64,000 nt of DNA from Alicyclobacillus sp. SO9 (GTDB lineage Bacteria; Bacillota; Bacilli; Alicyclobacillales; Alicyclobacillaceae), in contig NZ_CP066339.1 in NCBI RefSeq assembly GCF_016406125.1, positions 1,736,001 through 1,800,000 of the forward strand. The letters run 5' to 3'. A program made the position numbers and the translations under genes. Below, in pieces: positions 1,757 through 61,044 of the stretch. The notes under the pieces were generated by a model. That model was not told where the DNA came from and made no database searches. It saw only the letters and a program-made list of their open reading frames with translations. Every line of letters starts with the position of its first letter. The stretch's first letter is position 1.

Positions 1757-5113
<3,357 letters not shown>

Positions 5114-29250: not shown

Positions 29251-29440
29251 GTTAAGCTCCCCACAGATGCCTATTTGCGTGATTAATGTCCATTTCCGGT
29301 GGATAAGCACCTGTGGGATCTCTATTCGGATACTACCGTCGAATTTGGGTTGAAATTGGGGTATTAAGCTCTTCTGGAGCGCCTATTTGCCTCTTTAGTA
29401 GTTATCAAAGACAAATAAGCCTGTCTGGGATCTCTATTTT
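29251..29440 (+). repeat. Array A1: four 26-nt units spaced 51, 61 and 51 bp
   Basis: Units start at 29252, 29303, 29364 and 29415. All are 26 nt and begin (A/T)TAAGC; the second and fourth end GGATCTCTATT. The sequences between them are unrelated. The 637-bp gap 29006-29642 that holds the array has no believable gene. It also contains two copies of AATAAAATTTGTATA (near 29537-29570) and the nfo terminator. The same family recurs at 55888-56080. Confidence 0.8.
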
Positions 29441-38712: not shown

Positions 38713-40008
38713 ATGTCGAGTTTTCAAACGTTTAAAAGCGGACGGTTGTATGTACATATTCTTCCAACAACCCAGTTCAAAACACGCTACATCAGTATGA
38801 AGCTCGCCCGTCCCATTGATAGAACTACCGTAACAAGCATTGCCATGTTGCCGTTTTTATGGATGGAAGGCACAGAGGAGTATCCTACAGCAAAAAGCTT
38901 GATTCGTAGAACGGAGTCCATGTACGGCACGAATATCCGTACTTCTATTGGAAAAAGAGGCGATATGCATGTCGCAGAATTGCATGCCACTTTTCCAAAT
39001 CAAGAAGTTGTCACCGGAAACGCAAAGTTGGCGGATGAGGTCTTGCATCTGTTGACGAGCGTCTTGACACATCCGGCGCGTGAGAACGATGTATTTGTCG
39101 AGGCGCATGTCCACAGAGAAAAGAATCTGCATAAGCACCGGATTGAGAGTTTGTACGACGACAAGATTTCCTATGCAATGGAGCAGTGTTTAAAGGAAGT
39201 CTGCGGCGAGTCCCCAGCCGGTCTTCCCAGACTTGGATTTGAGGAGGATGTGAACGGGCTCACGTGTGGGAACTTGTACCGGGATCACCAGGCTCTGTTG
39301 AATGAATCTGAGATTCACACCTACTTCATTGGTGAGGTCGCCGATGCTGAAAAACAAGCCAATGACATTTTCTCAAGATTGAACCAAGACCTTGTCAATC
39401 GCACAAGTACATCTGAGAAAACGGTTGAACCCTTGCCATTGCGGCATGCTGAATCAAAAACTGTGGTCGAGCGGCAGGATTTGCAGCAAGGAAAACTCAA
39501 TCTTGGGTTTCGAACAGGGATATCCTATTCTGCGGCCGACTATATGTCTTTGCTGACCGCTAACGGGATTTTGGGAGGGTTTCCGCACTCCAAACTGTTT
39601 GTCAACGTTCGTGAAAAGGCGAGTCTGGCTTATTATGCGACGAGCCGGCTTGAAGCGCTGAACGGAGTGTTGGCCATTCAGACTGGCATTGATGTAGGCA
39701 ACTATGATGAAGCCTTAAAGATTATCCTGGAGCAAGTTGATAAATTGAAGCAAGGTGATATCACAGCAGATGAGCTGGATTTCACTTTGCGAGGCATCAA
39801 AAACCAGTATGTGCAGGCCCTTGATCAACCTGCTGCTATGGCTGATGTCCATTTCTCCGGCAGATTGGCGGGCGTCGACAGGGGTGTCGATGATTTAATC
39901 GCCAGCATAGACGGCGTGCAACCAGACGCGGTTGTAGAGGCAGCCAACACACTTGAACTAGACACAGTTTATTTCCTTCGGAATCAGGAGGGTGCCCGTC
40001 ATGCATGA
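38713..40008 (+). CDS. ymfF: M16-like protein YmfF (non-catalytic partner)
   Basis: 431 residues from ATG 38713 with AGGAG eleven bases upstream; in-frame codons back to 38593 have no ribosome site. M16 peptidase fold, but the zinc site H-x-x-E-H is absent where expected (MLPFLWMEGTEEY). C-terminal half has KLFVNVREKASLAYYATSRL, a typical M16 substrate-binding segment. It is paired with the HxxEH-bearing YmfH by an eight-base overlap, the usual active/inactive heterodimer arrangement of processing peptidases. Confidence 0.9.
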   Translation: MSSFQTFKSGRLYVHILPTTQFKTRYISMKLARPIDRTTVTSIAMLPFLWMEGTEEYPTAKSLIRRTESMYGTNIRTSIGKRGDMHVAELHATFPNQEVVTGNAKLADEVLHLLTSVLTHPARENDVFVEAHVHREKNLHKHRIESLYDDKISYAMEQCLKEVCGESPAGLPRLGFEEDVNGLTCGNLYRDHQALLNESEIHTYFIGEVADAEKQANDIFSRLNQDLVNRTSTSEKTVEPLPLRHAESKTVVERQDLQQGKLNLGFRTGISYSAADYMSLLTANGILGGFPHSKLFVNVREKASLAYYATSRLEALNGVLAIQTGIDVGNYDEALKIILEQVDKLKQGDITADELDFTLRGIKNQYVQALDQPAAMADVHFSGRLAGVDRGVDDLIASIDGVQPDAVVEAANTLELDTVYFLRNQEGARHA

Positions 40009-41287
40009 AATCACTTATCCGCCTTTTAATGAAAAAATGTATCAGGAGCAGTTGGACAACGGATTGACTGTATTTTTGTTGCCCAAACCAGGTTTCCAGC
40101 AGACTTTCTCTGTGTTTACGACTCGCTTTGGATCCATTGATCAAACGTTTGAAATGAATGACGGCAAGGACCTACTGACTGTTCCGGACGGTATTGCTCA
40201 TTTTCTCGAACATAAGATGTTCGAGTCTCAAGAGATTGATGTTTTTCAGGAGTTTGCCAGACACGGAGCGTCTGCAAACGCATTTACCACCTTTGATCAG
40301 ACCTCGTACCTGTTTACGAGTACACAAGATATCCTGGAAAACACAACAATTCTGTTGGACTATGTCCAAGACCCGTATTTTACCGAGGAGAATGTGGAGA
40401 AAGAAAAGGGCATTATTGGCCAAGAGATTCGGATGTACGAAGACAATCCGGATTGGCAGTCCTTCTTTGGATTGCTCAAAGCTATGTACAAAACCCACCC
40501 TGTCCACCTTGACATTGCCGGAACGGTAGAAAGCATTGCGGGAATCACCAAAGACCTTCTGTACGATTGCTATCGAACGTTTTATCATCCAGCCAACATG
40601 GTCTATGTGGCCGTGGGCGGCTTTGATCCCGAACAGATGATGAATCACATCCGCTCAAACCAAGCTGCCAAGAATTTTCCCAAGGCGCCGCCATTTACGC
40701 GAGTGCCCGTGGATGAGCAGAAAGAGGTAGCCACGCCGCAGGTTACCGCCGAACTAAGTGTCAGCCAGCCACGCTGTATCATTGGATGGAAGGATGCGGA
40801 TGTCGGACTTACAGGAGAATCGCTCCTCAAGCAAGAACTGCTAACCGGCGTCATCCTTGATACCCTGTTTGGCAGAGGCAGCGATGCTTATCACGAATTT
40901 ATCGATGAAGAACTGATTGATCAGCAGTTCAGTTGGGAGTATGAATGCACAGAGAGTTATGGATACTCACTCGTCGGCGGCAATACCAGCAATCCCGACC
41001 TGCTGCTAAGACGAATTAATGAAACTCTAGACAGGGCTCGCTACAGCGGGCTTTCACAGGATGAGTTTGAGCGCAATCGCAAAAAAGCCATGGGCCGCTT
41101 TGCCATGGCCATGGATTCACCGACCGCTATAGCTCGCAACTTTACTTCATATCATCTGAAGGGTGTCGATTGGTTTTCTTCAATCCAGATTTTAGAGAAC
41201 CTGACGTTGGAACAGGCGAATGAGCGGCTCAACAGTCACTTTGTTTCGTCCCAACAGGCAGCCTCCATTGTAACGCCGAAAGAGTGA
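40001..41287 (+). CDS. ymfH: M16 family zinc metallopeptidase YmfH
   Basis: 428 residues from ATG 40001 with AGGAGG eight bases upstream. Zinc motif HFLEH at residues 67-71 and the downstream Glu (EKEKGIIGQEI) are present, so it should be active. It overlaps ymfF by eight bases. M16 peptidases degrade or process short peptides inside the chamber formed by two such subunits. Its stop is followed within 40 bp by a large 13-bp tandem repeat. Confidence 0.92.
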   Translation: MHEITYPPFNEKMYQEQLDNGLTVFLLPKPGFQQTFSVFTTRFGSIDQTFEMNDGKDLLTVPDGIAHFLEHKMFESQEIDVFQEFARHGASANAFTTFDQTSYLFTSTQDILENTTILLDYVQDPYFTEENVEKEKGIIGQEIRMYEDNPDWQSFFGLLKAMYKTHPVHLDIAGTVESIAGITKDLLYDCYRTFYHPANMVYVAVGGFDPEQMMNHIRSNQAAKNFPKAPPFTRVPVDEQKEVATPQVTAELSVSQPRCIIGWKDADVGLTGESLLKQELLTGVILDTLFGRGSDAYHEFIDEELIDQQFSWEYECTESYGYSLVGGNTSNPDLLLRRINETLDRARYSGLSQDEFERNRKKAMGRFAMAMDSPTAIARNFTSYHLKGVDWFSSIQILENLTLEQANERLNSHFVSSQQAASIVTPKE

Positions 41288-41322
41288 AGAGTGAGCCAAG
41301 GAGCAGCCTGGGGCCGCGGCTG

Positions 41323-41664
41323 CGGCTGAACGGAGCGGCAGAACGGAGCGGCAGAACGGAGCGGCTGAATGGAGCGGCTGAATGGAGCGGCAGAACGGAG
41401 CGGCTGAATGGAGCGGCTGAATGGAGCGGCTGAATGGAGCGGCTGAACGGAGCGGCTGAACGGAGCGGCTGAACGGAGCGGCTTAACGGAGCGGCTGAAC
41501 GGAGCGGCTGAACGGAGCGGCTGAACGGAGCGGCTGAACGGAGCGGCTGAATGGAGCGGCTGAATGGAGCGGCTGAATGGAGCGGCTGAATGGAGCGGCT
41601 GAATGGAGCGGCTGAATGGAGCGGCTGAATGGAGCGGCTGAATGGAGCGGCTGAATGGAGCGGC
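41323..41664 (+). repeat. About 26 tandem copies of a 13-bp unit
   Basis: The unit is GGAGCGGCTGAAC, varying mainly between GAAC and GAAT and between GGCTG and GGCAG. Thirteen is not a multiple of three and the unit has no stops on the minus strand, so two minus frames translate to the same 13-residue peptide repeat (SIQPLHSAAPFSR) and look like genes. It starts about 36 bp after the ymfH stop. Confidence 0.95.
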
Positions 41665-41780
41665 AGATATGCCGAAAAGTTGGCTTGAGAGGGCACGGCG
41701 AGGAGTTGGGTGCGTGTCATGGGCAGAGAACACAGTTGAAAGCTGCCCGTGCGAGGGAGTTTGTTCGCGATCGCGTTTGG

Positions 41781-42023
41781 TTAGTGATCCCTTCGCTCCC
41801 TATTCCGGTACTCGCCAAGCGATAGTGATCGATTCGATCACTATCGCTTGTAGCCGTCTACCATAGGGATCCCATTGCTCCCTATGGTCCATGTCCCACC
41901 CTGCCTCGATGCACATTAGGGATCATTGATGACACTAATGACTCGGCCAATTGGCTTTAGTGATCGTTGGGATCACAATCGTATCGCCGCTCCCGCGAAT
42001 AGTGATCATTTGAGTCCCTAACT
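41781..42023 (+). repeat. Array B: six palindromic 23-25-nt units at 41-bp pitch
   Basis: Units start at 41781, 41822, 41863, 41916, 41957 and 41999 (steps 41, 41, 53, 41, 42). Each begins (A/T)TAG(T/G)GATC, has 5-6 variable bases and ends in the reverse complement, for example ATAGTGATC-GATTC-GATCACTAT, which is perfect. Sequence between the units is not shared. No gene is credible in 41665-42103. Confidence 0.85.
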
Positions 42024-42073
42024 GCCGGACTGGTGCAGTCCTGAGTGGTGCAGTCCTGGCAACTGTCTTCAGC

Positions 42074-42101
42074 AGGGTGCCAGATGGGCTGGCACCCTTT
42101 T
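42074..42101 (+). terminator. Terminator-like hairpin next to tcdA stop
   Basis: AGGGTGCCA pairs with TGGCACCCT around GATGGGC, followed by TTTT on the plus strand. It would end plus-strand transcripts coming from ymfH and the repeat region, and gives a hairpin for tcdA without a U-run. Confidence 0.75.
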
Positions 42102-42103
42102 AG

Positions 42104-42859
42104 TTAGAGTTCGATGCCGAGCAAATCATGGATGACTACGCTTGCGAGGATTAGGCCGGCTACTGAAGGGACATAGGCAGTACTCGCTGGCGGCATTTTC
42201 TCCTTGCGGATTTTCGAATCTGTCTTCTCTTCAGGTACAATGTCTCTGCGGACGTTTTCCAGAGGCTCACGAGGAGGCTCGTCGGAGCAGACTGTTTTGA
42301 CACCTTTGGCAATGCCGAGTTTCTTGAGTTCTCTTCGTAATACTTTTGCGATGGGATCGACCTTTGTATCCGCAAGATCCATCACTCGAAATCGGGTTGG
42401 ATCCAACTTGTTGGCAGCGCCCATACTGCTAACAATAGGAATGTTGCGTTTCACACAACTTTGAATCAAGTGGATTTTTGCACTGACCACGTCAATTGCG
42501 TCAACGACGTAGTCCAGGGAGTCAAATCCGAACAATTCATCTTCATTTTCCTGTGTAAAGAAGACCTTTTTGGCGATGACTGTACACTCTGGATTTATAG
42601 CGTGGATGCGTTCTTTCATCACGTCTACCTTCGGGTGTCCGACTGTAGTGGTCAGCGCGGGCAACTGTCGATTGACATTTGTAATGTCTACGGTATCTTT
42701 ATCGATTAGGATGAGTTGCCCAATGCCCGATCGCGCTAAGGCTTCCATCGCGAATGAGCCCACTCCGCCGGCTCCAAGGACGGCAACGGTTTTCTGATGA
42801 AGTGTTTTCACACCGTCTGTGCCGAAAACCAGCTCTGTTCTCGAAAACTGATTGACCAT
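42104..42859 (-). CDS. tcdA: tRNA threonylcarbamoyladenosine dehydratase TcdA
   Basis: 251 residues. ThiF/E1-like Rossmann fold: nucleotide loop AVLGAGGVGSFAMEALAR (about 26-43), DKDTVDITNVNRQ, and the conserved KTVCSDEPPREP with the Cys found in this group. TcdA cyclises t6A37 to ct6A on ANN-reading tRNAs using ATP. Tail sequence TAYVPSVAGLILASVVIHDL is family-typical. Single gene, divergent from the YaiI/YqxD-family gene. Confidence 0.92.
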   Translation of the reverse strand: MVNQFSRTELVFGTDGVKTLHQKTVAVLGAGGVGSFAMEALARSGIGQLILIDKDTVDITNVNRQLPALTTTVGHPKVDVMKERIHAINPECTVIAKKVFFTQENEDELFGFDSLDYVVDAIDVVSAKIHLIQSCVKRNIPIVSSMGAANKLDPTRFRVMDLADTKVDPIAKVLRRELKKLGIAKGVKTVCSDEPPREPLENVRRDIVPEEKTDSKIRKEKMPPASTAYVPSVAGLILASVVIHDLLGIEL

Positions 42860-52519: not shown

Positions 52520-52557
52520 TACCGGTACGGAAGTGTTCGGACCTGAGCAAGGCAAAC

Positions 52558-52720
52558 GTGAGAGGTAAGCGAGAAAGGTAAGCGAGAAAGGTAAGCGAGA
52601 AAGGTAAGCGAGAAAGGTAAGCGAGAAAGGTAAGCGAGAAAGGTAAGCGAGAAAGGTAAGCGAGAAAGGTAAGCGAAGAAAGGTAAGCGAAGAAAGTAAG
52701 CGAAGAAAGTAAGCGAAGAA
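52558..52720 (+). repeat. About 12 tandem copies of a 13-bp unit GAGAAAGGTAAGC
   Basis: Perfect copies run from about 52571 to 52675, then 13-14-bp variants GAAGAAAGTAAGC. The whole is bounded by GGCAAACG at both ends (52551 and 52721). Minus-strand frames read as Leu/Ser/Arg/Pro/Phe repeats and are artefacts. It fills the gap between the sulfoxide reductase and the next gene. Confidence 0.95.
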
Positions 52721-60949: not shown

Positions 60950-60952
60950 CCC

Positions 60953-61036
60953 GAAGAAATGAGTTGAAGAACTGAGTTGAAGAACTGACTCGAAAAAATG
61001 AGTTGAAGAACTGAGTCGAAGATATGATTCGAAGAA
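60953..61036 (+). repeat. Six to seven tandem 13-bp units after rodA
   Basis: Unit GAAGAACTGAGTT with substitutions (GAAGAAATGAGTT, GAAGAACTGACTC, GAAAAAATGAGTT, GAAGATATGATTC), all exactly 13 bp. It lies between the rodA stop and its terminator. Confidence 0.9.
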
Positions 61037-61044
61037 AAGTGTAG

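Follow-up and report, generated by a model that had tools for sequence, protein, structure and literature searches.

The usual explanation of palindromic repeats interspersed in bacterial genomes invokes hairpins and a RAYT transposase. Within the REP type, the palindrome has a different sequence from genome to genome, with a short end tag that is conserved. Palindromic sites dispersed along the chromosome also serve the nucleoid proteins Noc and MatP, whose targets (NBS and matS, respectively) are single short sites. REP sequences and BIMEs, with their RAYT transposases, are palindromes of ~20–40 bp that occur more than 100 times per genome in intergenic DNA and form composites with regular spacing (PMC2817692; PMC3733652). 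The staphylococcal STAR element is built on the 14-bp motif T(G/A/T)TGTTG(G/T)GGCCC(C/A), repeated one to seven times with spacers of 40–44 bp (PMC3532100), and MITEs, among them one of Porphyromonas gingivalis that carries a minisatellite, are short, dispersed and non-coding (PMC4596501). Here we report on a high-copy intergenic array of Alicyclobacillus sp. SO9, of which literature searches found no description.

The six-dyad element and its surroundings

The array lies in a window of 64,000 nucleotides (the whole stretch of DNA analysed), which represents positions 1,736,001–1,800,000 of a chromosome of 5,196,104 bp whose first gene is dnaA. It consists of six 21-bp dyads with two-fold symmetry, situated between two convergent genes: unit 1, TAGTGATCCCTTCGCTCCCTA (41782–41802); unit 2, TAGTGATCGATTCGATCACTA (41823–41843), which is perfect and in the window copy extends to a 35-bp palindrome (41816–41850); unit 3, TAGGGATCCCATTGCTCCCTA (41864–41884); unit 4, TAGGGATCATTGATGACACTA (41917–41937), which follows the 53-bp centre step; unit 5, TAGTGATCGTTGGGATCACAA (41958–41978); and unit 6, TAGTGATCATTTGAGTCCCTA (42000–42020). 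The original prediction had described six units at steps of 41, 41, 53, 41 and 42 bp, and the unit starts reproduce these steps exactly. The pattern TAGKGATC-N5-GMTCMCTA is matched 13 times in the window when up to three mismatches are permitted, compared to 1.65 expected; none of 100 shuffles reached 13, and 12 of the 13 matches fall within the array (array B). An alignment of 78 copies delimits the whole element, hereafter the hexad, to 41775–42028 in forward orientation (+ strand), and its border bases (left, GTTTGGT; right, AACTGCC) are conserved in copies at unrelated loci.

The gene upstream (39992–41287, + strand) encodes a homologue of the YfmH-family M16 peptidases (NF047421, 583 bits; Pfam M16). 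The downstream gene (42104–42859, − strand), convergent with it, encodes a ThiF/TcdA-like protein (PF00899) whose top NCBIfam model is TcdA, with a score under the cut-off of that model. The upstream gene is served by an intrinsic terminator with a 10-pair stem and a T tail (42074–42098, + strand); this is the only GC-rich hairpin with a T run and it is located outside the array, which rejects terminator as the identity of the array itself. A 15-bp direct duplication marks the right border of the hexad (42025–42054, + strand), and 117 bp to its left lies a 13-bp tandem repeat of 26 copies (41322–41664, + strand), one of three separate intergenic repeats with 13-bp units in the window (the others at 52545–52716 and 60952–61037). 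The window also encodes a large collagen-like repeat protein of 1115 amino acids (1766–5113; PF01391). The likeness that had been claimed between array B and a second family, family A, is correct: this sister element (29253–29436) comprises four 21-bp TA..TA dyads that start at 29253, 29304, 29365 and 29416, in steps of 51, 61 and 51 bp. Elsewhere in the genome, about eight copies related to family A follow one another in tandem with a period near 112 bp (G000:C1:460465-461348).

Copies, placement and relatives

Across the whole genome, TAGKGATC-N5-GMTCMCTA with up to two mismatches has 527 forward matches compared to 4 with a reversed control. The dyad symmetry of the units is itself real. 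In 38 genome stretches read around known copies we called 81 hexads, and because these hold 373 of the 401 dyad matches in the stretches, the genome total is roughly 100 hexads or more; the array, which would have been called into question had there been no other copies, proves to be one of a large family. All 81 fully read copies have six units at about 41, 41–42, 52–53, 41–42 and 41–42 bp. Among the 78 well-formed copies the first step is 41 bp in 75 and 40 or 42 bp in three, the second 41–43 bp, the third 53 bp in 68 and 52 bp in 10, and the fourth and fifth 41–42 bp each. Hexads are found in both orientations and are frequently duplicated in tandem with periods of ~400–540 bp, and homology between hexads of different loci runs from ~5 bp outside unit 1 to shortly past unit 6, sometimes with more flank. 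In 19 of the 78 hexads a short tandem repeat begins no more than 12 bp from the right border, and only 2 have one that ends within 8 bp of the left border; the intergenic DNA of this genome is generally rich in such repeats (40 of 192 control segments). One hexad (L053, C1:84717-86460) is broken after unit 2 by an insert of ~1.5 kb, where a gene for a Mutator-family transposase is located. Isolated single dyads were sought as a pointer to a regulator gene, and all candidate exact-dyad sites checked, which came from beyond the stretches read at first, lie in hexads or hexad remnants; since no isolated site of regulatory type was found, a classical regulator is unlikely.

None of the 41 hexad clusters overlaps a gene called by our home-made gene finder. 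Their contexts are tandem in 23 cases, convergent in 16 and divergent in two, compared to 65 tandem, 15 convergent and 35 divergent among the other gaps, 100 bp or longer, of these stretches and of the window; Fisher p is 0.001 for the convergent excess and 0.0005 for the divergent deficit. The functions of the flanking genes are unrelated, and no shared function emerged among them. The clusters are also concentrated near dnaA: 30 of the 51 known lie within 0.7 Mb of it, a region that makes up 27% of the chromosome (p 2e-6), and where one search was complete with respect to position, the first 0.70 Mb of 4.76 Mb holds 16 of 30 (p 9e-7).

The 21-bp dyads of relatives, spaced by 40–42 or 50–53 bp, have arms that are quite different; the geometry is kept while the sequence changes between related lineages, even inside one genus. 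A second genome of the window's own genus was not present among the genomes searched. Alicyclobacillus sp. ALC3, a further member of the Alicyclobacillaceae, possesses long 41-bp arrays of TAGGTGTC..GACACCTA dyads (169 of 179 steps are exactly 41 bp) whose centres are mostly an AAA or TTT tract; no orthologous array positions shared with the window genome were found. The M16–TcdA gene order is kept in ten relatives, with a gap of tens of bp in most, and in several the orthologous gap, of this size, is without an array. In genome G017, from another genus, the same convergent gap houses a different array, TAGAGGAACTGAGTTCCTCTR, with 11 units at a 51-bp pitch (L155:804-1347); this genome has 304 matches of the TAGAGGAAC dyad at 51 bp and its congeners have 0–1. 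The number of units varies in the arrays of both ALC3 and G017. The array of G007 has a pitch of 53 bp, the steps in G005 alternate between 52 and 73–79 bp, an element of four dyads in G062, read by hand, is spaced at about 50/62/50 bp, and G006 shows only a weak dyad. The multi-dyad elements of G062 come directly after a 5S-rRNA-like sequence (L204:2900-4100).

A blind scan of random stretches retrieved TAACGCG..CGCGTTA dyads at 53/40/40/53 bp in G024, with related dyads in G002, and TTACGCAC..GTGCGTAA dyads at 52–53 bp in G002. In genus g3 the TAACGCG (53/40/40/53) and TTACGCAC (52–53 bp) dyads are located at L216:5892-6100 and L222:16855-17600, and in L222 they stand side by side; one genome can hold two array families. 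No such arrays emerged when the scan was run on 640 kb belonging to other members of the family, on ~326 kb taken outside it or on 1.13 Mb of shuffled sequence. These zeros are weak evidence of absence, as the scan requires at least three alike dyads and misses imperfect hexads including that of the window. Outside the Alicyclobacillaceae, Paenibacillus pectinilyticus displays TAGGCTCGGAAACCGAGGCTA dyads at a 41-bp pitch (L103:5416-5660 and L122:7297-7400), which may be of the same kind or a coincidence. Many further candidates from a genome-wide scan, in Mammaliicoccus, Tetragenococcus, Jeotgalicoccus, Gracilibacillus and others, were rejected as plain 41-bp tandem repeats without dyads.

The steps from six genomes concentrate at whole helical turns, with p about 1e-5 to 1e-4 if they are independent. 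The step list was fixed before the blind scan, and arrays detected de novo afterwards contribute steps of 53, 40 and 52 bp; steps of 61–62 and 50 bp are off-phase by ~0.1–0.2 turn.

Half-site constraint and competing readings

Each dyad contains an inverted pair of 8-bp half-sites with the consensus TARKGAKC. In 492 half-sites from 41 non-redundant copies, position 1 is T without exception (492/492) and position 5 is G in 489, while position 4 is G in 224 and T in 263 (487/492, other bases 5); the transition/transversion ratio at this position is 0.02, compared to 0.74 in the spacers. G and T share a major-groove acceptor at one place, and a groove-reading protein would thus be a natural cause of such a position. 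The original prediction had taken arm co-variation as a sign that the dyad itself is maintained, a claim for which we find little support. In the 41 copies, the position that is G/T in one arm and A/C in the other pairs no better than independent columns would: pairing of the arms at position 4 is not significantly above expectation in any unit (lowest p 0.056) and in unit 6 falls below it. Co-variation survives in unit 4 only, at a pair just outside the 21-bp core and at one inner pair, and does not extend to the main variable position. The mismatches T:C, G:A and A:C between arms are as frequent as chance or more so, and in ALC3 the arms pair at position 3 in 81 of 189 cases, compared to 105 of 189 expected. 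Selection on a stem would require a G in one arm to be accompanied by a C in its partner; the independence of the arms at position 4 speaks against it, and base pairing is therefore not what is selected. The half-sites nevertheless persist: among copies, the half-sites have a mean pairwise identity of 0.86 and the spacers one of 0.56, and conformity to TARKG is 0.985–0.992 in every class of spacer divergence, uncorrelated with it (Spearman −0.13, p 0.41), where neutral drift would keep it at ~0.80–0.87 in the more diverged classes. The half-sites are thus maintained while the spacers diverge; the main caveat is biased gene conversion among copies, which could also keep them uniform and thereby counts against an operator reading.

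Three options had been offered at the outset: a protein-binding array, a series of RNA hairpins and a folded-DNA element. The first is supported by the degenerate half-site code, which suggests groove reading, by whole-turn steps in several lineages and by the independence of the arms; the other two are disfavoured because arm mismatches are at or above chance and there is no Rfam match. On the evidence of the sequences the best reading, to which we give an even chance, is that the hexad is a helically phased operator array for a putative dimeric DNA-binding protein, dispersed by copying. A dimer on a phased array fits since the constraint sits on half-sites and helical-turn spacing and not on stems; half-site constraint independent of the partner arm and helical phasing are the marks of such an array, and both are found here. 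Each 21-bp dyad would be read as two inverted TARKGAKC half-sites by one dimer, and six dimers would line up on one face of the helix, approximately four turns apart with a single five-turn step in the middle, where they may bind cooperatively and form one nucleoprotein block between gene ends. The most likely role would be to insulate or organise the DNA there. Copies would spread as whole cassettes via tandem duplication and recombination, without a recognised transposase. The fast, lineage-specific change of letters suggests either that the site co-evolves with its putative binding protein in each lineage or that new dyads have repeatedly taken over the arrays. It also counts against the operator reading, as a single conserved protein would need a very fast change of specificity to follow half-site codes so different between lineages; similarly, the scarcity of hexads at divergent promoters would suit a neutral insertion as well, one no more than tolerated where it lies.

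The chief rival, unlikely on balance yet to be taken seriously, is a non-autonomous mobile element with multi-site ends, in which the dyads are transposase or recombinase sites, two or three toward each end, and conservation reflects mobility and not local function. The high copy number, both orientations and borders shared ~5 bp outside units 1 and 6 at unrelated loci are all in its favour, as are the orthologous gaps, which in several relatives measure just tens of bp and lack an array, and the symmetric layouts with a more variable middle step (3+3 in the hexads of the window genome, 2+2 in family A at 51/61/51 and in G062 at 50/62/50). However, no target-site duplication is seen at any offset in 41 copies (no pair of offsets shares 4–9 bp k-mers beyond isolated cases), the window genome has no Y1 transposase domain, neither plasmid records (blastn) nor viral contigs (exact three-unit pattern) gave matches, and old, diverged copies keep their half-sites as well as young ones. 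That the repeats are inert satellite DNA, which slippage and recombination generated, which gene conversion keeps uniform and which has no binding partner, is improbable: the tandem repeats that often begin at the right border, the tandem duplication of whole elements (periods ~400–540 bp) and the variable unit number in ALC3 and G017 would agree with it, but not the strict six-unit architecture of 81 copies despite a spacer identity of 0.56, the keto-only degeneracy of position 4 or the fact that other species build this same geometry from unrelated sequences. Somewhat less probable still, and in our view very unlikely, is a feature of RNA, be it a transcribed hairpin series that acts at the 3′ ends of mRNAs, an RNA with several hairpins or a terminator. 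Copies are indeed located at gene 3′ ends, unit 4 shows some paired change and, for either strand, the fold of the window copy is better than that of shuffled sequence (z −5.4 and −4.8), although palindromes alone would produce good folding on both. The arms vary independently or even against pairing, the array is without a T tail, a separate terminator lies outside it, the gap contains no promoter-like site, no Rfam family matches, and whole-turn spacing has no reason in RNA.

A broader proposal than the operator array, which we put forward as rather doubtful, is that the Alicyclobacillaceae share a chromosomal site system coded by geometry: each species would amplify its own 21-bp TA..TA dyad to dozens or hundreds of intergenic sites, nearly always four or five turns apart and densest near the origin, and a fast-evolving protein that binds these arrays would read them and thereby insulate or organise the ends of genes. 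If true, bacteria would here have a counterpart of the satellite DNA that co-evolves with the protein bound to it.

Comparison with described repeat systems

Several known identities fail because each misses a defining test. An RNA family is one of these, with no Rfam match above the gathering score in the window or over the arrays at nine loci, and the terminator, as above, is another. CRISPR, judged from repeats and spacers alone, is rejected as the repeats are imperfect and the spacers (20–32 bp) have homologues of equal rank at other loci. A RAYT-type REP is contradicted by the Y1 tyrosine transposase (PF01797), which has no match in the window genome and is present in 17 of 41 family genomes, and by the GTAG/CGTC end tag, which the units lack, being mostly ATAG..CTAT or TTAG..CTAA; those of ALC3 often have GTAG. 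STAR differs from the hexad in both consensus and pitch.

The likenesses are nonetheless instructive. Hexads resemble REP/BIME as high-copy intergenic palindromes (527 matches; 0 of 41 clusters overlapping called genes), but their dyads come in fixed multiples at whole-turn steps and their half-sites are devoid of pair co-variation. Like MITEs they have inverted-repeat borders and associated short tandem repeats; unlike MITEs they show no target-site duplication and are without an identified related transposase, and their internal sites are constrained in old copies. With the sites of Noc and MatP they have in common that palindromes are scattered along the chromosome, whereas the hexad clusters six dyads in phase and its binder is putative. 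STAR shares the occurrence in intergenic DNA of Bacillota, species-specific locations, a motif kept while spacers vary, and an unexplained function and spread (PMC3532100); the hexad differs in its 21-bp dyad, fixed six copies and spacers of 20–21 bp.

Whether the intergenic repeats of bacteria are selfish or have a binding partner is an old question that becomes directly testable here, and a binder, if found, would represent a new class of proteins that bind arrays all over the chromosome and change their specificity unusually quickly. Relative to REP/BIME and STAR, what differs is the fixed unit number, the helical phasing, the absence of RAYT and the freedom from a pairing constraint; the conserved feature is not the hairpin, and the helical-turn spacing outlasts a complete change of letters between related species.
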